The notes beneath the pieces were generated by a model. That model did not search any database. It saw only the letters and a program-made list of their open reading frames with translations, and was not told the origin of the DNA. A stretch of DNA of 10,053 nt from Clostridiales bacterium (lineage in GTDB: Bacteria; Bacillota; Clostridia; Tissierellales; Sedimentibacteraceae). Both the position numbers and the translations under genes were made by a program. This document shows, one piece after another, positions 1 through 9,033 of this stretch. Position 1 is the stretch's first letter; each line of letters opens with the position of its first letter. The DNA lies in the NCBI GenBank assembly GCA_003487955.1, contig DNNJ01000112.1:1732-11784 (forward strand), read 5' to 3'.

Positions 1-108
1 GTGGCTGCTATATGTAATATAAGTCCGCAGGAGTTGGCAAGAAAAAATTTAGTGCCGGTGCTCTGCGGAATCGGTGCTGCGATTATAATGGCGCTGGTGA
101 CACTATAA
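1..108 (+). CDS. C-terminal end of a probable integral membrane permease (partial)
   Basis: Frame 1 is open from the left edge and ends with TAA at 106-108, giving 35 residues; the start lies outside the window. Residues 1-14 contain the motif SPQELARKN, and residues 15-35 form one hydrophobic segment rich in V, I, L, G and A that runs almost to the stop. A short polar loop followed by a final membrane helix at the very C-terminus is typical of secondary transporters, but the family cannot be named from this much. It converges with the minus-strand operon, with a 237-bp gap between the two stops, so it is probably a separate transcription unit. An alternative is a chance open frame at the edge, but the amino acid make-up looks like a real membrane protein. 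Confidence 0.6.
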   Translation: MAAICNISPQELARKNLVPVLCGIGAAIIMALVTL

Positions 109-345: not shown

Positions 346-2229
346 TTATGCTAAAGACTGTGATGCTGAATTTTGTTTAGCTCCGATAAACCTTTGATAT
401 AGAATAAGTGCTACGAGAATCAGTAATCCGATGAGATCTGTATAGGTACCAACCACTAAAAAACAGATGGCAGAAGTCGCCAAAGCTATTCGTTTGAATG
501 GATTTAAATTTCCATAGAAATACCCTTGCATTGCACCTGCTATCAAAAATACACCAACAAATGCGGTAATAGTAGCTTGTACAATTTGTAAAGGGGCTCC
601 TTCTAACAGAATTGCCGGGTTATATGCTGCCACAAATGGGACAATATACGCAACAACAGCAAGTAATGAGGCCATTACACCTGTTTTCATTGGATTGGAA
701 TCAGCTACATTTGCTGCTGCATATGCTGCGACTGCAACCGGCGGTGTTATATTGGAGATTATTGAGAAATAAAACACAAACATGTGTGCTGCAAATGGAG
801 AGACGCCTAGATTTATAAGCAGCCGACTACCTAAAGCAGACGTAATAACGTATGCCGCAGTGCTTGGCACGCCCATCCCGAGTATAATGCACGAAACTGC
901 AACTAGCAATAAAGCAAAAAACTTTATACCTTGTGAAATACTGATCACTACACTTGAGAAACTCAATGCAAGACCACTATAAGTAACAGCGATAACAATT
1001 AGTCCAGCACCTCCAAGTGCTGCCATGCTCATAGTTGAGCTTCTTGCTCCTGCATATAACGCATTAATTATCTTCTTTGGTGTCATTCTATTCTCTTTAC
1101 TGAAAAAACTTACTACAACACAAGCGGAAGTAGCCCAAAGTCCTGAACGCAATGTAGATGTTCCCGTTAGAAGTAGCACAATAAGTAAAATAATGGGGAA
1201 AAATAAGTAACTTCTCTTCATAACTTGCTTAATCTGTGGAAGGTCCTTCTTTTGTTCACCTTTCCTGTTTTCTTTGCGACATTTAAAGTGTATCATTGCA
1301 AATAATGAAAAGTAGTAAAGTACAGCAATAATCGAAGATTTTATAGCCACAGAAGCATATGGTATGGCAAGATTTTCTGCCATCAAAAAAGCCGCAGCTC
1401 CCATTATTGGCGGCATTAGCTGCCCCCCAGTAGAAGCCGCTGCATTAACTGCCCCTGAAAATTCTGGGCTAAACCCACTTTTTTTCATAAGAGGAATAGT
1501 AAATGTTCCAGTCGTATAGACTGTAGCAACTGCAGATCCTGTCATAGTACCAAAAAGACCAGCACTGATTGTTGCAATCTTTGCGGAACTTCCACTGGTA
1601 TGTCCTGCAATTGCACGTGAAAAATCTGTAAAGAAGCCGCCTGCACCACTCTCCACTGCAAAAGCACCAAATATGCAAAATACAATAATAAATGTTGCAG
1701 AAGTACCCATAAGACTTCCGAATATACCCTGATCGGTAAGCATTGTACTAGTTTCAATTATTCGTTCGACGGAAAGTCCCTTATGGGATAGTATTCCTGT
1801 CAGATGCGGACCTACATAAAGATATATAAGTCCTATAACTATAAGTAACGTCATCACACTTGATACACAACGTCTAGAAGCCTCAATCATACATACTACA
1901 AGTACAATTCCTAAAATTATCTGAACTGTTGTTAGCTGTGAGACAAAAATCATCCTTGTTTCAAGAATTGTCTTGTTCATAATGACATAGATACAAGGTA
2001 TTATTGAAGCAATTGCAAAAATCGCATCGACCACTGTTATTCTATCTTTTGGCGACTTTTTGGTCGCGGGATATAGAAAAAAGACCATTGGTAATAATAT
2101 GCCTACATGTATACCACGTTGTATAAATGGAGCTAGTACGCCGGCGGCAGCAGTATAAAGAGAGAATATTGATATGAATACTCCCATAACCATACAAGTA
2201 TAATTGGAGATGCCTTTCAGCTTTCTCAT
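346..2229 (-). CDS. TRAP transporter fused permease (4TM/12TM, DctQM-type), TAXI-associated
   Basis: This 627-residue integral membrane protein is the permease of a tripartite ATP-independent periplasmic (TRAP) transporter, with the small (DctQ-like) and large (DctM-like) subunits in one chain. Fused 4TM/12TM permeases of this length normally pair with TAXI-type binding proteins. Residues 1-140 hold about four hydrophobic helices and form the small-subunit part. The DctM core begins near 165, with the conserved stretch GLFGTMTGSAVATV at 224-237, then ASTGGQLMPPIMGAAAF at 265-281, and a second-half counterpart at 451-502 (GMGVPSTAAYV and NITPPVA). Uptake is driven by an ion gradient, usually Na+. 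The start is supported by GAGG seven bases upstream. It lies 19 bp after the binding-protein gene and is surely co-transcribed with it. It is the last gene of the operon; I see no good terminator before the inverted-repeat element downstream. The substrate cannot be told. Confidence 0.95.
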   Translation of the reverse strand: MRKLKGISNYTCMVMGVFISIFSLYTAAAGVLAPFIQRGIHVGILLPMVFFLYPATKKSPKDRITVVDAIFAIASIIPCIYVIMNKTILETRMIFVSQLTTVQIILGIVLVVCMIEASRRCVSSVMTLLIVIGLIYLYVGPHLTGILSHKGLSVERIIETSTMLTDQGIFGSLMGTSATFIIVFCIFGAFAVESGAGGFFTDFSRAIAGHTSGSSAKIATISAGLFGTMTGSAVATVYTTGTFTIPLMKKSGFSPEFSGAVNAAASTGGQLMPPIMGAAAFLMAENLAIPYASVAIKSSIIAVLYYFSLFAMIHFKCRKENRKGEQKKDLPQIKQVMKRSYLFFPIILLIVLLLTGTSTLRSGLWATSACVVVSFFSKENRMTPKKIINALYAGARSSTMSMAALGGAGLIVIAVTYSGLALSFSSVVISISQGIKFFALLLVAVSCIILGMGVPSTAAYVITSALGSRLLINLGVSPFAAHMFVFYFSIISNITPPVAVAAYAAANVADSNPMKTGVMASLLAVVAYIVPFVAAYNPAILLEGAPLQIVQATITAFVGVFLIAGAMQGYFYGNLNPFKRIALATSAICFLVVGTYTDLIGLLILVALILYQRFIGAKQNSASQSLA

Positions 2230-2248
2230 TATTTAACCTCACTTTCTT

Positions 2249-3319
2249 TTAGTTCATATATCCATGATCTTTGTAGAATTGCTCTGCACCTGGGTGAAGT
2301 GGAACGCTTCCAGTGTTTTGCCAAGCGGTTGCTATATCAAAATCTTTGAAGCTAGGACTTATTTCCTTGAATTCATCTACATTTGTTTCTATTATTTCAA
2401 GAATACGATAAACAGTATCATTATCTAGTTCAGCACTGCAACCCAGTCCAGATGACATCTGCAAAGTCTTAACATCAGAATCCTGGAAAGAATAGGTTCC
2501 AGCAGAAATTGTGTATCTAGATAAAGCATAGTTGTTTACCATATAATCTATTAGGTCTTCTGGCATAGATAGAAGCTTTAAATCAGTAAAAGCGGCAAGT
2601 TCCTGTGTTGTACTAAAAGGCATTGAGCCCTGATTGAACATAACATCCACATGCCCATCTTGAACGAGCTGTGACCAATCGCTATATGGTGTATATGTAG
2701 TACCGCCACCCCAACTCTTTATGTCATCCTCAGTTACATCGTAGTAATTAAGCATGATATCAAAAAACAGAGCGGGGGTTGTGGAACCTTTGTTAGGTGT
2801 CAACCAACGAATACCCTTTTTGTTGTTAAATATATCATCAATATCTACAACATCAACGTTGTCCCTTGCAACTACCTCAATTACTTGAGGACTAAGACCT
2901 GTAGCAATAATGTTAATCCCTGGATATGATTCTTCATAAGGAGCTTCACCTTCATATGCTAATTGACACATTGGAGGATATACCCAACCAATATCAAATG
3001 TTCCAGAGCCAATAGTAGCTGAGTTACCTATACCAGAACCTGGTGCTACTCTAATGGCAATCAGTGGTTCTTTTTCTTGAATCAAATCAGTAAAAGCAGC
3101 AAATGTCGAATACCAACCGCCGCCAACTGCACCAGCAACACCATTTAGATTAGCACCCATCCACTCAAGCGACACTCCACTTGGTTTTTCACTATCAGGA
3201 GCTTTAGATTCTGGTTGATTGTTCTCCGGAGTGTTACTTGGAGTGGAATTATTACTACCGCATGCACTAAATGTGGCTACCATACATAATACTAGAATTA
3301 AAACTATTAATTTTTTCAT
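2249..3319 (-). CDS. TAXI family TRAP transporter substrate-binding lipoprotein
   Basis: This 356-residue extracytoplasmic solute receptor captures the substrate and hands it to the fused permease encoded next. The N-terminus is a lipoprotein signal peptide: MKK, a hydrophobic run at 4-17, then the lipobox FSAC with the lipidated Cys at 20. A Ser/Pro/Asn/Glu-rich linker at 21-47 would tether it to the membrane in a monoderm cell. Family hallmarks are the early Gly-rich segment at 60-70 (GVAGAVGGGWY), the SGIGNSATIGSGTFDIGW region at 95-112 and the C-terminal VPLHPGAEQFY at 339-349. Known TAXI proteins bind glutamate, 2-oxoglutarate or similar acids, so an anionic substrate is likely but not proven. 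The start has a strong GAGGAGG ribosome binding site. A stable hairpin lies in the leader about 25 bp upstream, separating it from the COG2309-family gene (198-bp gap). This may set the expression level of the transporter genes apart from the enzymes. Confidence 0.95.
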   Translation of the reverse strand: MKKLIVLILVLCMVATFSACGSNNSTPSNTPENNQPESKAPDSEKPSGVSLEWMGANLNGVAGAVGGGWYSTFAAFTDLIQEKEPLIAIRVAPGSGIGNSATIGSGTFDIGWVYPPMCQLAYEGEAPYEESYPGINIIATGLSPQVIEVVARDNVDVVDIDDIFNNKKGIRWLTPNKGSTTPALFFDIMLNYYDVTEDDIKSWGGGTTYTPYSDWSQLVQDGHVDVMFNQGSMPFSTTQELAAFTDLKLLSMPEDLIDYMVNNYALSRYTISAGTYSFQDSDVKTLQMSSGLGCSAELDNDTVYRILEIIETNVDEFKEISPSFKDFDIATAWQNTGSVPLHPGAEQFYKDHGYMN

Positions 3320-3343
3320 TTTTCTTCCTCCTCTATAATTGGT

Positions 3344-3373
3344 TTAGAACAACCACTTTTTAAGTGGTTCTAA
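3344..3373 (-). promoter_or_regulatory. Leader hairpin upstream of the TAXI binding-protein gene
   Basis: TTAGAA (3344-3349) plus CCACTT (3353-3358) pairs with AAGTGG (3362-3367) plus TTCTAA (3368-3373). This gives a 12-bp stem with a 3-nt bulge (3350-3352) and a TTT loop. In the minus-strand transcript it ends about 25 nt before the binding-protein start codon and leaves the GAGGAGG site free. No T-run follows it in that direction, so it is not a classical terminator. It could stabilise a processed transporter mRNA or be an operator; the sequence does not decide between these. Confidence 0.5.
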
Positions 3374-3459
3374 ATATTAATTTATTTTTAGCAAAATGCA
3401 ATAATTAATTAAAACTAACTTTTATGGCTATAAATTATTTAAGCAAAACATTATTCTAC

Positions 3460-3485
3460 TATCAAAATTAAACCAAAGGTTTTAA
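3460..3485 (-). terminator. Possible weak or leaky terminator after the COG2309 gene
   Basis: Read on the minus strand, TTAAAACC (3485-3478), a TTT loop and GGTTTAA (3474-3468) form a 7-bp stem with one bulged A, followed by TTTTG. The stem is AT-rich and the T-run short, so most polymerases would probably read through. It lies about 30 bp after the stop codon of the upstream gene and could lower expression of the transporter genes. Confidence 0.25.
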
Positions 3486-3517
3486 GGCACATATTAGATC
3501 ATAGTCACGTTTGTAGC

Positions 3518-4510
3518 TTAATCCAAAGCTTCATCTTGAAACACTCCATCTTTCAACAACATAATATCATCAATATAAAGAGTTGCATCTTTAGCAATCA
3601 TATCTATGTGTAATGGTGCACTTACTTGACCTCCTGGAAAATTAGAGGCATTGTTTCCTGCCGCAATATGTACTGTTCCAAGAGGTGCTTCATCTTCCAA
3701 TAATGTTCCGCAAGGTATAGCATTTGGATTCAAACCAATACCTAACTCACTTATGCGAAAACAATTGGGGTTGTCGTGCATAGTGAAAATACTTTCTAGC
3801 AGGTCTGCATCATTGCCACCCTCAATCAATTCAATTACTCCATTGCGCACTGTAAGCTTAACAGGTTCAGTAACAATACCTACGCCGGCAATACTGGCAT
3901 TTATAACAAAGACTCCATTTGTGCACTCCTCAACCGGGGCAATGCAAGCCTCAATGTTCGGAGGGGCCGCAAATGAACCTGGTGTTGTAGCAATACCATC
4001 TACAGCTCTACCCGTACGTCCTTCAAGTGAAAAAGAAATATCCGTCCCGTTTTCTTCGCAGATAATTCGTGCTGTCTTTGCGTTTGTTAAAATATCTTTA
4101 ACCTTGCAAGCAACGATTGATCTTGCAGGGAAATCAGCCTCAATTGCTCCGTATACCAACATATGCGGGTAAACTTCAGGCATCGTAATTATGCGACAGC
4201 CTAAAGCTCTGGCAGCTTTTACAGCCGATGTGTGTGACATAGATTTAGTTGTAATCAGAAAAGCAACAGTGGCTTTTTCTATTGCTGCTCCAACTACATC
4301 CGGAGGAGGCGTTCCATGGCTCTTTGTTGGTTCAAATATTATCATGTTAGTACAAGCGCCAATAGCAAGGCAGGCCTTGGTTACTTGATTTGCAACCTCA
4401 AACGAAGCATAATCGCATACAATTGCAACAATGTCTTCTGTGGAAACTCCAGCACAATCACGGGCTATCTTCATAGCGCCTCTACTCATAAGATTGTCTT
4501 TAATACACAT
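3518..4510 (-). CDS. COG2309-family (M29 aminopeptidase / NicX-like) metal-dependent protein
   Basis: This 330-residue protein resembles the COG2309 superfamily, which includes thermophilic M29 aminopeptidases (AmpS, AmpT) and the non-heme iron 2,5-dihydroxypyridine dioxygenase NicX. Supporting segments are PPNIEACIAPVEECTNGVFV at 183-202, matching the conserved 'N-P-E-x-x-x-x-P ... GV' region; ISELGIGLNPNA at 253-264; and the C-terminal EDEAPLGTVHIAAGNN at 272-287 followed by LHIDM at 300-304. Likely metal ligands are E255, H281, H301 and D303, by analogy with the family. At 330 residues it is shorter than typical M29 peptidases (about 400) and closer to NicX-type members. It has no signal peptide, so it should act in the cytoplasm. 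The ribosome binding site AAGGAGGT lies 9 bp before the ATG. A 112-bp gap separates it from the aminotransferase gene upstream. Its role (peptide or amide hydrolysis, ring opening, or something new) is open. Confidence 0.75.
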   Translation of the reverse strand: MCIKDNLMSRGAMKIARDCAGVSTEDIVAIVCDYASFEVANQVTKACLAIGACTNMIIFEPTKSHGTPPPDVVGAAIEKATVAFLITTKSMSHTSAVKAARALGCRIITMPEVYPHMLVYGAIEADFPARSIVACKVKDILTNAKTARIICEENGTDISFSLEGRTGRAVDGIATTPGSFAAPPNIEACIAPVEECTNGVFVINASIAGVGIVTEPVKLTVRNGVIELIEGGNDADLLESIFTMHDNPNCFRISELGIGLNPNAIPCGTLLEDEAPLGTVHIAAGNNASNFPGGQVSAPLHIDMIAKDATLYIDDIMLLKDGVFQDEALD

Positions 4511-4561
4511 CGATCTTTTACCTCCTTATTTATTTAAAATAATTTCCTTTTAGCCAAACAG

Positions 4562-4590
4562 TTTTTAATATTAATAATAACCAATGTCAA
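4562..4590 (-). promoter_or_regulatory. Possible internal sigma-A promoter before the COG2309 gene
   Basis: On the minus strand TTGACA (4590-4585) is followed after 17 bp by TAAAAA (4567-4562). The -35 box is perfect and the -10 box poor. It lies in the 112-bp gap between the aminotransferase and COG2309 genes and could give the downstream genes some sigma-54-independent expression. In such AT-rich DNA this may be chance. Confidence 0.25.
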
Positions 4591-4622
4591 GCAAATTACC
4601 TTTTACTCTGATCAACCATTTG

Positions 4623-5786
4623 TTAAAAAGAATATTTAAGAAACGTTCCTGCTACTGCTTTTGAAGCTGTTCCCAGCTCAATTTTATATCCAAGTTCAAA
4701 TAATGACATTTCAATGGCACCCATTACAGCATAAATATCCAACTTATGAACAGATCCCAAATGTCCTATTCTAAAAATTTTCCCTTGTAATTGTTGTAGT
4801 CCACCACCTATAACTACACCGTATTTTTCTCTTAGTATGGTAGAAAATTCCTCAAACTTAATTCCATCCGGCATATTAATAGCAGTTACAGTATCAGATT
4901 GGTATCCTACTTCAGAAAACAAAGTTAATCCCATAGCCGTTATTGAATTTCGAGTTGCTTCTGCCATTATAGCATGCCTTGTCCAGACATTCTCCAATCC
5001 TTCTTCTTCAATAATATCTAAAGATTCTTTTAGCCCAAACAACAAAGTTGTAGGAGGCGTATAAGGTAATTGTTTTTGTTCCATTTTTGCTCTTACTGCC
5101 TTATAGTCCCAATACCATTTAGGCAATTTTGATTCTTCAGAAAGCTTCCATGCTCTTTCACTTATAGCAATAATACTTAGCCCAGGTGGCAGCATAAACC
5201 CTTTCTGTGATGCAGTTATAGCAACATCTACTCCCCATGCATCTGTCTCAAATGGAAGGCAAGCGAGTGAACTAACTACATCAACAATTAATAATGCTGG
5301 GTGCCCACTTTCCTTCATCATTTTGCCAACTGTCTCAATATCATTTACGATTCCAGACGTTGTTTCATTTTGCGGTAAACATACTGCTTTTATCTTTTTT
5401 TCTACATCCTGCTTAAGAACAGTTTCAATATCCTCAACCTTTACAACTTCTCCCCACTCTTTTTGAATTTTTATTGTATTGACTCTATACCTTTCGGCAA
5501 TTAATGCAACCCTTTCGCTAAACAAACCATGACAAGCTGTAACAATCGTATCTCCAGGTGAAAAAAGATTAACTATAGCTGATTCCAAAGCCCCACTACC
5601 TGAACTTGGAAACATAAGAATATCATTATTAGTTCTAAATATCTTTTTCAAGCCATCTACACAATTTGTTAACAGTTTCTCGAATTCAGGACCCCTATGA
5701 TTTATAAGTGGCATCGAAAGGGTTCTAAGTATTCTATTTGGTACATTAGTCGGTCCAGGTATTTGTAAATATTCTCTCCTTTCCAT
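4623..5786 (-). CDS. PLP-dependent aminotransferase, class V, alanine-glyoxylate/serine-glyoxylate type
   Basis: This 387-residue fold-type I PLP enzyme belongs to the alanine--glyoxylate/serine--glyoxylate aminotransferase family (COG0075). It has the expected length and shows the whole set of family landmarks in order: IPGPTNVPNRIL at 9-20, the phosphate-binding SSGSGALE at 61-68, the ETTSG loop at 141-145, D169 in VDVVSS (pairs with the PLP ring nitrogen), the Schiff-base lysine K195 in TASQKG, YTPPTT at 242-247, and the substrate-carboxylate arginine R339 in FRIGHLG. Members move an amino group between alanine, serine, glycine/glyoxylate and related acids; (S)-ureidoglycine and pyridoxamine transaminases are also in this family, so the substrate stays open. 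It is cytoplasmic. It lies 11 bp after the aldolase gene, whose stop codon abuts an AAAGGAGG site, so the two are probably translationally coupled. Next to an aldolase that would release glycine, a glycine/glyoxylate role is attractive but inferred. Confidence 0.9.
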   Translation of the reverse strand: MERREYLQIPGPTNVPNRILRTLSMPLINHRGPEFEKLLTNCVDGLKKIFRTNNDILMFPSSGSGALESAIVNLFSPGDTIVTACHGLFSERVALIAERYRVNTIKIQKEWGEVVKVEDIETVLKQDVEKKIKAVCLPQNETTSGIVNDIETVGKMMKESGHPALLIVDVVSSLACLPFETDAWGVDVAITASQKGFMLPPGLSIIAISERAWKLSEESKLPKWYWDYKAVRAKMEQKQLPYTPPTTLLFGLKESLDIIEEEGLENVWTRHAIMAEATRNSITAMGLTLFSEVGYQSDTVTAINMPDGIKFEEFSTILREKYGVVIGGGLQQLQGKIFRIGHLGSVHKLDIYAVMGAIEMSLFELGYKIELGTASKAVAGTFLKYSF

Positions 5787-5797
5787 AATTTCCTCCT

Positions 5798-6853
5798 TTA
5801 TAAACTATCAACAATGTCTTCAATTGCTCTAATTACCTCATAAAGATGACTTTCCCCTACGCCATAATGGGTTACCATTCTAAAAGATACTTCAGAAATT
5901 CTTTTCACCTTAATTCCTTTTTGCATCAGTTTGCCAATAAAGCAGTCTATAGTGGTTGGCAAATCTTCAATAGAACCTGAAATAATATTTGTATGTATTT
6001 TTGATATTTCTACTTTCAATCCATTGATTTTTGCCAAACCTTTACCTAAGATTAAGGCATGTTTATGATCAATTTCAATTTGTGGAAGCATCGTATTTAA
6101 TGCCACAATTCCAGGTGCCGCCAAGAAACCTGCCTGTCTATAACCTCCACCCATCCTTTGCTTCATCCATCTAGCCTTTGCAATAATATCTTTGTTCCCA
6201 GCAAGTATCGCTCCAAATGGTGCTGCAAGACCTTTTGTCAAGGCAAACATAACTGTATCTGCATTTTTGACAATCTCTTTAACAGGTGTTTTGGAAGCAA
6301 CTTGTGCATTGAAAACTCGCGCACCATCTAAATGAACTAGTATATTATTCCTTTTTGCTAAATTACAAACATTATTTAAGTTATCAAGTGGTACTACATA
6401 TCCTGCATTCAGATTGTTTGTATTTTCTATGCATATTAAAGAAGTCTTCGCATTTTGGATACCTTTTTCTTGAATAAGACCTTCCATTTTCTTAATATCA
6501 TAAACTCCGTTTGGCACTTCCATTGGTCTCGCTTGTACTTGACAAAGTGCTGCAAGTGCTCCGACCTCTAAATTATAAATATGCGAGGTATTCCCTACAA
6601 TAACTTCTTCTCCACGATTAGTTAGTGTCATAACTGCTATTTGGTTGCCCATAGTTCCTGAGGTAACAAATAGAGCAGCTTCTTTGCCAAGTATATCTGC
6701 TGACATTATTTCTAATTCTCTTACAGTTGAATCTTCCCCCATAATGTCGTCTCCAACCACAGCCTTGTACATTGCTTCCCTCATTTCTTGAGAAGGTTGT
6801 GTTACGGTATCAGATCTAAGATCAATAAATTCTTCTATATCTTCACCTCCCAT
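5798..6853 (-). CDS. Threonine aldolase-family PLP enzyme (beta-hydroxy-amino acid aldolase), divergent active site
   Basis: A 351-residue fold-type I PLP protein of the low-specificity L-threonine aldolase family, which cleaves beta-hydroxy-alpha-amino acids to glycine and an aldehyde. Landmarks: DLRSDTVTQPS (11-21), SGTMGNQ (65-71), PLP-stacking H91, LDGAR with D176 and R179, the Schiff-base K207 in LTKGLAAPFG, GGGYRQAG (235-242) and carboxylate-binding R325 in RMVTH. Against E. coli LtaE, as I recall its sequence, several residues near the substrate side chain differ: Tyr30 is M38, Phe87 is L95, His126 is Q133, and the His of the ENTHN motif is N146. This hints at another substrate. It is the first structural gene after the sigma-54 promoter. 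The ATG at 6853 has no good ribosome binding site, whereas a perfect GGAGGTGA lies inside codons 2-4, seven bases before an in-frame ATA (6838). The protein may really begin there as (M)EEFIDLRSD, the usual family N-terminus. Confidence 0.88.
   Translation of the reverse strand: MGGEDIEEFIDLRSDTVTQPSQEMREAMYKAVVGDDIMGEDSTVRELEIMSADILGKEAALFVTSGTMGNQIAVMTLTNRGEEVIVGNTSHIYNLEVGALAALCQVQARPMEVPNGVYDIKKMEGLIQEKGIQNAKTSLICIENTNNLNAGYVVPLDNLNNVCNLAKRNNILVHLDGARVFNAQVASKTPVKEIVKNADTVMFALTKGLAAPFGAILAGNKDIIAKARWMKQRMGGGYRQAGFLAAPGIVALNTMLPQIEIDHKHALILGKGLAKINGLKVEISKIHTNIISGSIEDLPTTIDCFIGKLMQKGIKVKRISEVSFRMVTHYGVGESHLYEVIRAIEDIVDSL
6843..6850 (-). promoter_or_regulatory. Perfect Shine-Dalgarno inside the annotated aldolase start; suggests an ATA start at 6838
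   Basis: GGAGGTGA on the minus strand is fully complementary to the 16S 3' end, but lies just after the ATG at 6853-6851 and seven bases before ATA at 6838-6836. A nine-codon upstream frame (ATG at 6872, TGA at 6845-6843) ends on this same site, so coupling with a mini-ORF is another possibility. Confidence 0.45.
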
Positions 6854-7014: not shown

Positions 7015-7076
7015 TGAAACGTTTTAGTTTCTTTTGCGAAACATTTTTGTTTTGAATGTGAACCACCCTTGTTTCA
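7015..7076. promoter_or_regulatory. Three tandem activator-binding palindromes with 22-bp period (upstream activating sequence)
   Basis: The three sites fit TGAAAC-N6-GTTTCA: 7015-7032 (TGAAAC/GTTTCT, one mismatch), 7037-7054 (CGAAAC/GTTTTG, three mismatches) and 7059-7076 (TGAACC/GTTTCA, one mismatch). All are preceded by G. Starts are exactly 22 bp apart, about two helical turns, so bound dimers would lie on one face of DNA. A weaker fourth copy may exist at 6994-7010 (TGAAAG/GTTTTA). They occupy the enhancer position about 100-160 bp upstream of the sigma-54 start site and end just before the regulator stop codon. They are the likely sites of the Fis-type HTH of the neighbouring activator. 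Confidence 0.75.
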
Positions 7077-7080
7077 CATG

Positions 7081-9033
7081 CTAAATTAAATTTTGCCGTG
7101 ATGCATCCAAATTGTACTTTTTCATTTTTCTCCATAGGGTAGTCCTAGATATACCAAGCGCCTTAGCTGTTAAATTAATAATCCCCATATTATCTTTTAA
7201 CGCACGCAAGATTAAGTCTTTCTCTAAGTTATTAATAACTTCATGATCTCGTAATAATTTATTATTTTTATTAATTATCCATTGGGTATCCAATTTGCAT
7301 TCAATTGAATCTCCATTACTATTATCAACACTAATAAATTTATCTTTAATATCATCCAATTCAATGTATGTCTGTTTTGTACCAACCATTAACCTTTCAA
7401 CAAAGTTTTTAAGTTCCCTCACATTACCTGGCCAATTATATAAACTTAAATATTCTACAGCAGATATACTTAGGGCTATAGGAGGTCTTTTTAATTTTTG
7501 GCTATAGCATAAAATAAAATGATTTAAAAGTGCTTTAATATCCTCTTTATTATCTTTCAAGGGAAGCATCTCTATTTTCAAAACATATAGCCTATAAAAT
7601 AAATCCTCTCTAAACTTCTTTTCTACTACAAGGTTATAAAGATTCTTGTTTGTAGCGGTAATAACCCTCACATCTATAGGAATTACTTTATTATCTCCAA
7701 TCCTCATAACTTGTCTTTCCTGTAACACTCTTAACAATCGTCCCTGAATCATCGGACTCATTTCACTTATTTCATCTAAGAATATAGTTCCACCATGTGC
7801 AAGTTGAAACAGACCTCGTTTACCTTTTCTGTCTGCTCCAGTAAATGATCCTGGTGCATACCCAAACAATTCGGATTCCAAAAGGCTCTCAGGAAGTGCT
7901 GCACAGTTAACTGCTACAAATGGTCCATCAGATCTATTACTATAATTATGAATGCTTTGAGCCATAACTTCCTTACCAGTGCCTGTTTCACCCTCAATTA
8001 AAATTGTTGAATTTGCCTTTGCATATTCTTTACCGATTCTTATAGCTTCTAAAGATTTACTGCTTACTCCTATAACATCTTTAAATGTATATTTAGCATA
8101 AAGTCCAGTACCAGTAATTTCTCTTCTTATCTGCTCTTCCATTTGTTGAATTCTCTGTACATCTTGTAACAATGCTACAGCATCAACTACTTCACCGTTT
8201 ACTTTTATAGGTATATTAGACACCATTATTTTCTTTTCGCGAACGTATTTAATAACCTCCATCTCACCAATACCGCTATCTATTATATCAGTAAGCTCAA
8301 GTTCAGGAAGCACATCATCTATATGCCTACCTATAACGTCTTTACAATTAATTTTCAATAACTTTTCAACTGTTGAGTTAATAATACTTATGTATCCGTT
8401 TTTATCAACTGATATAATACCATCTTTAGAGTTCTCTACTATAGTTCTGAATCTTTCCCCTCTTTTATTCTCATCACGTGTAGCTATCGCAATTCTTTTC
8501 GCTTCTTCGATTGCACTAATAATAGCTTCTCTTCCAGTTTTTATAACAATCGTTTCGATACCATATTTAGGCCCATATTTTGCAATAATACCTCCACCAA
8601 TAACGACCTTTATTCCTTTACTTGAAATATCAGAAATCTTTTCTTCTACTTCTTTTTCATTTGCAACATGAATTATTTGATATTTTATTCCAGTTATTTT
8701 TTTGAAACTTTCAATTGCTGTAAGCATATTGCTAAAAGCTAATATCGCAATATTGTCATCCACCTTTTTAGCTTCTATTATAGCATTGAAAACATCTGTC
8801 ACCGTTATTGGAATTGACACTGTTGGTATATTAAGGCCAACATCGTTTAATAGAAGCTGTGTACCACCTCTTGCAATAATAACATTAAAGCCCTTTGCTT
8901 CATACTCTTTAGCTATATCAAGACCTCTTTTCATGGATCCCTCTATTATATGAATGCTTTCTTCAAATTCAGAAGCCGCTGACTCAGCCACTCTTACCAA
9001 GTCTTTTGGAATTATTATAGCAATTTTAATCAT
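7081..9033 (-). CDS. Sigma-54-dependent transcriptional activator, PrpR-like (PrpR_N-PAS-AAA+-Fis HTH)
   Basis: A 650-residue enhancer-binding protein. Residues 1-190 resemble the PrpR_N sensory domain, with Rossmann-like repeats (RGGTQLLL at 55-62, VIGGGIIAKYG at 144-154); in PrpR this domain senses a propionate-derived metabolite. Residues 191-300 form a PAS domain (SKDGIISVDKNG at 202-213) ending in a coiled linker. The AAA+ domain spans about 320-550: Walker A GETGTGKE at 348-355, the sigma-54-contacting loop GSFTGA at 395-400 (Ser for the usual Ala of GAFTGA), Walker B GGTIFLDE at 414-421, and WPGNVRELKNF at 534-544. The Fis-type helix-turn-helix at about 605-642 includes NLTAKALGISRTTLWRKM (620-637). 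The start is fixed by AGGAGG seven bases upstream. It has its own extended -10 promoter, and the sigma-54 promoter and palindromes just downstream are the obvious targets. The effector is unknown, but is probably the operon's substrate or a product of it. Confidence 0.95.
   Translation of the reverse strand: MIKIAIIIPKDLVRVAESAASEFEESIHIIEGSMKRGLDIAKEYEAKGFNVIIARGGTQLLLNDVGLNIPTVSIPITVTDVFNAIIEAKKVDDNIAILAFSNMLTAIESFKKITGIKYQIIHVANEKEVEEKISDISSKGIKVVIGGGIIAKYGPKYGIETIVIKTGREAIISAIEEAKRIAIATRDENKRGERFRTIVENSKDGIISVDKNGYISIINSTVEKLLKINCKDVIGRHIDDVLPELELTDIIDSGIGEMEVIKYVREKKIMVSNIPIKVNGEVVDAVALLQDVQRIQQMEEQIRREITGTGLYAKYTFKDVIGVSSKSLEAIRIGKEYAKANSTILIEGETGTGKEVMAQSIHNYSNRSDGPFVAVNCAALPESLLESELFGYAPGSFTGADRKGKRGLFQLAHGGTIFLDEISEMSPMIQGRLLRVLQERQVMRIGDNKVIPIDVRVITATNKNLYNLVVEKKFREDLFYRLYVLKIEMLPLKDNKEDIKALLNHFILCYSQKLKRPPIALSISAVEYLSLYNWPGNVRELKNFVERLMVGTKQTYIELDDIKDKFISVDNSNGDSIECKLDTQWIINKNNKLLRDHEVINNLEKDLILRALKDNMGIINLTAKALGISRTTLWRKMKKYNLDASRQNLI

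Follow-up and report, generated by a model that had tools for sequence, protein, structure and literature searches.

The beta-hydroxyaspartate cycle (BhcA-D), the guanitoxin aldolase GntG and its L-allo-threonine aldolase relatives, the glutamate transporter VcGluPQM, the M29 aminopeptidases, the dioxygenase NicX and the oxamate branch of the allantoin pathway are the described systems with which we compared five genes from a Clostridiales bacterium of the Sedimentibacteraceae. The genes lie in a stretch of 10,053 nucleotides, hereafter the window (GenBank assembly GCA_003487955.1, contig DNNJ01000112.1, positions 1,732 to 11,784). In order, they encode a threonine-aldolase-type pyridoxal phosphate (PLP) lyase (TA), a class V aminotransferase (AT), a COG2309 protein of the M29/NicX fold, a TAXI receptor and a fused TRAP permease. 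We propose, at a probability of roughly 0.46, that they form a sigma-54-switched catabolic operon built from two modules, TA-AT and the COG2309-TAXI-TRAP trio, which would serve import, hydrolysis and breakdown of a beta-hydroxy amino acid.

The beta-hydroxyaspartate cycle would share with this locus the idea of an aldolase that connects glycine and glyoxylate with a C4 hydroxy amino acid, and BhcA gave the top NCBIfam match for AT (404.9 bits). However, AT stayed under the BhcA cut-off of 650, the window route would run catabolically, and TA belongs to the threonine-aldolase family (PF01212), from which the BhcC aldolase differs in fold. BhcB and BhcD families were absent among the window genes, the rest of the genome not having been searched for them. 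TA resembles GntG and the L-allo-threonine aldolases in scoring above the family cut-off and in keeping six checked residues, while the neighbors of the guanitoxin cluster presumably differ from those in the window. VcGluPQM matches in receptor family and TRAP membrane component but differs in the receptor pocket, where the window TAXI has all six mutagenized ligand residues replaced. NicX, the 2,5-dihydroxypyridine 5,6-dioxygenase, is closest to COG2309 in fold and size, yet two of its four iron ligands are replaced there; unlike the M29 aminopeptidases AmpT, AmpS and PepS, COG2309 is about 80 residues shorter and has no catalytic tyrosine. Finally, a related locus (L081) couples TA-AT with members of the AllF, AllG and AllH families, described as oxamic transcarbamylase subunits in PMC11326118, whereas the window genes include none of these families.

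A predicted sigma-54 promoter precedes the gene set

A single sigma-54 promoter had been proposed in the preliminary description, and the site TGGCATGGTCCTTGCT in front of TA bears this out, matching 11 of 12 bases of what we take to be the -24/-12 consensus. Its quality was equaled in 5 of 5000 shuffles of the 227-base intergenic gap before TA, and it was the sole match in the window with at most one mismatch (0.06 expected; 11 of 200 window shuffles held one). The best sites before COG2309 (8/12; 871 of 5000 shuffles as good) and before TAXI (6/12; 5000 of 5000) were at chance level, and the best site before the upstream activator gene (7/12) was on a par with shuffles. Scans of the minus strand in the gaps at 4511-4622 and 3320-3517 returned zero sigma-70 promoter or terminator matches, which is weak evidence because the yield of these scans over the whole window was close to that of shuffles (38 vs. 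38.9 and 7 vs. 5.3, respectively). All five genes may share one sigma-54 transcript.

Upstream of TGGCATGGTCCTTGCT lies a cluster of half-sites that may be bound by the activator. With the motif chosen post hoc from inspection of the window and L081, the five-letter form GAAAC/GTTTC occurred four times upstream of the promoter (1 of 5000 shuffles reached four) and the six-letter form TGAAAC/GTTTCA twice there (80 of 5000); ahead of TA in L081, both forms numbered four (0 of 5000). A sigma-54 site of 11/12 (11 of 5000 shuffles) also precedes TA in L081, and we count the recurrence of site and half-site cluster before the same pair in favor of a sigma-54-switched operon.

The activator, which adjoins the five genes at 7081-9033 and fell outside the span of 346-6853 first given for the set, likely regulates the operon. 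It contains a PrpR_N domain (131.3 bits) and failed two NCBIfam models, PrdR (406.7; equivalog cut-off 795) and PrpR (369.2; cut-off 499.2). Two open reading frames (ORFs) before TA in L081 are 68% and 66% identical to it; this relative (L081:3752-5535) is broken into two frames, by a sequence error or as a decayed gene.

TA and AT as an apparently recurring pair

By family, TA would be a PLP-dependent beta-hydroxy-amino-acid aldolase of the GntG/L-allo-threonine aldolase type. It passed the GntG-family PLP aldolase model NF041359 (360.1 against a cut-off of 230), its nearest solved structure was the L-allo-threonine aldolase 2fm1 (E 3e-92), and H91, D176, R179, K207, R239 and R325, which we take to be catalytic, were kept in 122 of 122 aligned sequences. 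AT falls, again by family, in the putative serine/alanine/aspartate-glyoxylate aminotransferase group; its best solved relative was the serine-glyoxylate aminotransferase 6pk1 (E 2.8e-82), and K195 and R339, to which we presumptively assign roles, were kept in all 122 aligned sequences, a set that includes clusters of unseen neighborhood. Carbon-carbon cleavage and transamination, the chemistry initially suggested, is likely from the two families.

The same families could serve another substrate, threonine or allo-threonine, either as the free amino acid or within a small peptide. COG2309 would then be peptidase-like, TA would release glycine and acetaldehyde, AT would swap amino groups among glycine, alanine and glyoxylate, and the SDH_alpha proteins found in related loci (see below) would yield 2-oxobutyrate. 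The proximity of TA to L-allo-threonine aldolases and its GntG score fit this explanation, as do the M29-type metal residues of COG2309. We nevertheless hold it to be unlikely, if credible: TA failed the low-specificity L-threonine aldolase (PRK10534) model NF007825 (248.3 against a cut-off of 312), COG2309 has no aminopeptidase tyrosine, and cleaving threonine should need no glyoxylate-group AT.

To follow the pair, we compared the best 120 of 154 TA matches with the best 120 of 7887 AT matches, the window's own being removed to leave 119 each. As judged from matching contig sizes, with the neighborhoods themselves unseen, 36 of the 119 TA clusters shared a longest contig of exactly the same size with one of the AT clusters; in control comparisons with sizes offset by 1 to 60, such matches averaged 0.83 and never exceeded 3. 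Seven of the shared contigs measured 3-6 kb, so the TA and AT genes are close there. Sources of such cases, among the matches listed, include Tissierella, Schnuerera, Geosporobacter and Clostridium, several of which are amino-acid fermenters. TA-AT therewith looks like a recurring pair, yet unnamed. It is also patchy, because a survey of 391 genomes from the same class as the window, in which up to four candidates were scored for each, gave an AT above 44% identity in just one genome besides the window's, G227. Window, L081 and a further locus, L026, were joined with support of 100/99 on the TA tree (15 further rows, each belonging to the family of G227; long-branch warnings for L105 and L026) and of 100/100 on the AT tree (11 other rows).

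In L081, TA and AT are 72.5% and 69% identical to those of the window and stand beside the AllF, AllG and AllH relatives and a symporter, without the uptake trio. The best NCBIfam models for this SDF symporter were DctA (192 bits) and GltP (167), all under cut-off, which would suit a C4 substrate of acidic character. The association of TA-AT with All-family relatives and an amidase also raises the prospect of a ureido or purine-derived substrate, entering through the allantoin branch, with AT acting like (S)-ureidoglycine-glyoxylate aminotransferase. This seems very unlikely for the window: AT scored 280 bits for the serine-glyoxylate enzyme versus 162 for PucG and 138 for the ureidoglycine-glyoxylate enzyme, All-family proteins were absent among the window genes and, to our knowledge, TA plays no part in the known allantoin pathway. 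The L081 region itself (8108-15861; TA-AT, then AllF-, AllG- and AllH-family proteins, the SDF symporter, an FAH-family protein and an amidase) is perhaps a second catabolic cluster in its own right.

We also considered AT as a serine-biosynthesis paralog, which was ruled out as the window AT fell outside that group (100/100). Each of 11 fetched distant ATs (39-44% identical) adjoins a gene of about 530 codons, and the two of these neighbors that were scanned both encode D-3-phosphoglycerate dehydrogenases. The window AT lies outside this distant group and is set apart at 11 positions that hardly vary within either set; it therefore represents a separate branch.

COG2309 and the TAXI-TRAP transporter

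M29 aminopeptidases carry the catalytic motif E-E-H-Y-H-D, and loss of the tyrosine abolished the activity of a Listeria enzyme, as described in PMC7023490. With residues mapped by profile alignments and the tyrosine column placed seven positions from the histidine, the metal residues of this motif (E187, E255, H281, H301 and D303) were present in 39 of 39 COG2309 sequences and the tyrosine in 0 of 39, the window protein having A288 at this column. Because the M29 metal residues are conserved and two NicX iron ligands are missing (see below), COG2309 is probably a metal hydrolase, predicted to act on small molecules, and not a dioxygenase. The iron ligands reported for NicX, His265, Ser302, His318 and Asp320 (PMC7910607), align with E255, A283, H301 and D303. 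Two of the four are thus replaced, and ring opening by a NicX-like enzyme, as envisaged in the preliminary description, finds no support. The corresponding explanation, in which COG2309 would be an Fe(II) dioxygenase opening an N-heterocycle, draws on its similarity to NicX in fold and size and is largely refuted by these ligand residues; furthermore, the six relatives from named genomes are labeled, for example, Oscillospiraceae, Gracilibacter and Firmicutes, groups of anaerobes.

Both the receptor and the fused permease scored above curated cut-offs as a TAXI-TRAP system, and by eye the TAXI N terminus is lipoprotein-like. In the VcGluP glutamate receptor, the ligand residues are given as Y45, S75, Q93, E125, Y200 and M201, with Y45 and Q93 mattering most (PMC11574862). 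The window TAXI was aligned to chain 9ibo with columns numbered by hand; this chain was taken as VcGluP because a single fixed offset brings all the published residues onto matching letters. None of the six was kept (Y45 to W, S75 to G, Q93 to Y, E125 to Q, Y200 to N and M201 to Q). A glutamate-type ligand was ruled out by the replaced pocket residues, and the "anionic amino acid-like" ligand suggested earlier finds no support in this pocket.

The uptake trio occurs with different partners

A scan of named genomes with COG2309 yielded six relative loci (L021-L026). The window and four of the six carry the complete trio, uniformly ordered and with its genes on one strand, and the identities to the window of COG2309, TAXI and TRAP fell in step across L021 (77%, 69% and 77%), L023 (76%, 72% and 76%), L024 (55%, 51% and 55%) and L026 (48%, 43% and 49%). 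In L022 the trio ends with the contig, after the TAXI start, and in L025 COG2309 stands without TAXI-TRAP. The position directly before COG2309 is held by an SDH_alpha protein (PF03313, 196-217 bits) in L022, L023 and L024, by AT-TA in L026 and by no enzyme gene in L021. SDH_alpha of L023 and L024 are 38% identical. That TA-AT and SDH_alpha occupy the same place beside the trio suggests that both act on one type of product. A beta-hydroxy alpha-amino acid is required by TA, and relatives of SDH_alpha act on serine or cysteine by eliminating the beta-substituent. L024 has a RidA-type protein after the trio, which suits an enamine-releasing lyase. It also has an 11/12 sigma-54 site (2 of 5000 shuffles) at the start of the listed SDH_alpha frame; this site would precede the gene if translation starts further in, as the shorter protein of L023 suggests by eye. 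Comparable sites were not found before SDH_alpha in L023 or in the 80 bases available before AT in L026. In the latter locus, the first 37 or so residues of COG2309 (2428-3382) are apparently in a different frame, through a sequence error or frameshift.

Each of the two partner labels, TA-AT and SDH_alpha, required at least two changes on the trees of COG2309 and TRAP. The varying partners may reflect partner exchange or, alternatively, an ancestral association with TA-AT followed by losses.

Several observations weigh against the proposed operon and its chemistry. All five genes occurred together in only one of the six loci (L026), and neither TA-AT nor SDH_alpha stands beside COG2309 in L021 and L025. 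In a set of 100 genomes that comprised 24 congeners as well as the genome of the window itself, 46 had some COG2309 match at E 0.001 and none besides the window's exceeded 37% identity, so the five-gene set is very patchy. When labels were shuffled on the trees, with two to three rows per label, every one of 500 shuffles gave a count at least as low; the labels are therefore simply unclustered. Only one of 58 COG2309 clusters agreed with a TA or AT cluster in the size of its longest contig (0.9 expected by chance), giving no sign that TA-AT usually accompanies COG2309. A gap of 112 bp separates the pair from the trio, COG2309 is without the tyrosine essential in the Listeria M29 enzyme, and AT failed the BhcA aspartate-glyoxylate aminotransferase model (NF045640).

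The modules could accordingly be chance neighbors, TA-AT with the activator forming one unit and COG2309-TAXI-TRAP another, each with its own expression and substrate. Either module does occur without the other (the trio lacks TA-AT in L021, L023 and L024), gaps of 112 and 198 bp separate AT, COG2309 and TAXI, and agreement in contig size between COG2309 clusters and TA or AT clusters is at chance level. Against this stand the presence of both modules in L026 at 43-49% identity and the places of window and L026 on the COG2309 tree, which are not adjacent; the two together speak for an old or repeated association. The gaps are also without a minus-strand promoter or terminator match, as far as the weak scans go. 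We therefore consider chance neighborhood improbable, but a real contender. The initial view of the set as one catabolic unit stands as regards uptake and catabolism and gives way as regards unity, the five genes being two modules, each found alone; the conserved five-gene neighborhood that it set as a check was seen in L026 only.

Beyond these loci, 20 regions of 6-20 kb around distant COG2309 proteins (at most 36% identity) held TAXI and TRAP relatives only in L052, where they lie near two equal-scoring COG2309 copies, an Oxidored_FMN protein and an aldehyde ferredoxin oxidoreductase (1354-12025). In L066:7608-19648 and L058:4501-17461, a TctA-type transporter lies between two COG2309 copies and close to a PrpR54-like activator; L066 also encodes aconitase-family and isopropylmalate-dehydrogenase-family proteins. 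A more distant COG2309 is accompanied by AroM and DUF1177 proteins, identified by scanning, in L063:9184-11761, and L054:9848-13562 combines COG2309 with genes that by eye resemble those of L063 and a scanned S-Me-THD-like protein, a recurring cluster without an assigned function.

Proposed pathway

In the sigma-54-switched operon that we propose, the PrpR_N activator would sense the substrate or a metabolite and turn on the promoter before TA. TAXI and the TRAP permease, by family, would import a small polar compound. COG2309, to judge from its metal residues a two-metal M29-fold hydrolase with an altered active site, would open or deconjugate it, and the product may be a beta-hydroxy- or beta-substituted alpha-amino acid. 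TA would split this amino acid into glycine and an aldehyde, and AT would transaminate the aldehyde or glyoxylate, probably to glycine. In the relatives, the trio would hand its product to the SDH_alpha lyase for elimination of the beta-substituent.

Beta-hydroxyaspartate, or a conjugate of it, best explains a glyoxylate-group AT beside an aldolase, because its aldol products would be glycine and glyoxylate; as the actual amino acid it is a doubtful candidate. Slightly more doubtful is an undescribed anaerobic route in which a tyrosine-less M29-fold hydrolase would free beta-hydroxyaspartate from an imported conjugate and the aldolase and AT would convert it to two glycines. If true, this route would be the catabolic mirror of the beta-hydroxyaspartate cycle, with the SDH_alpha Fe-S lyase as an interchangeable end in related bacteria.

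As a catabolic operon, the gene set is fairly ordinary, but it is sharply structured and testable. Window and L081 place different uptake and first-step genes beside TA-AT. If one and the same trio is served by both TA-AT and SDH_alpha, the chemistry is restricted to amino acids whose beta-substituent can be removed, and the substrates of an orphan TAXI and COG2309 subfamily become testable with a short list of ligands.

Gene layout and other features of the window

The window comes from a genome of 427 contigs (79.66% complete) and contains seven long ORFs, all on the minus strand (Table 1). ORFs and family profiles agree with the five co-directional genes of the families originally named at 346-6853. 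TA and AT are 11 bases apart, AT and COG2309 112, COG2309 and TAXI 198, and TAXI and the permease 19. The first ORF is presumably the end part of uvrA, a name that we supply ourselves. The stem-loop before the TAXI start may, at a weak possibility, be an mRNA processing or stabilizing element.

Table 1. Predicted genes and sequence features of the window
Feature	Position	Strand	Evidence
uvrA (presumed), end part	10053-9523	-	Pfam ABC match under cut-off
PrpR_N-PAS-AAA+(sigma-54)-HTH activator	9033-7081	-	PF06506 131.3 bits; PF00158 225 bits
GAAAC/GTTTC half-site cluster	7015-7076	-	possible activator-binding region, predicted
Sigma-54 (-24/-12) promoter TGGCATGGTCCTTGCT, predicted	6942-6927	-	11/12 consensus bases
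TA, threonine-aldolase-type PLP lyase	6853-5798	-	Beta_elim_lyase 309.6 bits; GntG aldolase 360.1
AT, class V aminotransferase	5786-4623	-	Aminotran_5 88.4 bits
COG2309 protein, M29/NicX fold	4510-3518	-	Peptidase_M29 31.4 bits (cut-off 27)
Stem-loop before TAXI start	3343-3374	-	-10.4 kcal/mol; z -1.77; 10/200 shuffles as stable
TAXI receptor	3319-2249	-	NMT1_3 140 bits; TRAP_TAXI 140.4 (cut-off 84.35)
Fused TRAP permease	2229-346	-	DctM 269.1 bits; TRAP_fused 608.6 (cut-off 320.65)

At its other end, the window includes the 3' end of a convergent gene (1-106, plus strand) that runs on into L110 and by eye encodes a long, hydrophobic, transporter-like protein; a Pfam scan of its readable part gave zero matches. 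Between this gene and the permease stop lies an 18-nt inverted repeat (arms 212-229 and 284-301, 94% complementary, 54 nt between them), with a partial further copy at 197-216. The repeat region (197-301) may be a terminator, a repeat element or an insertion remnant.

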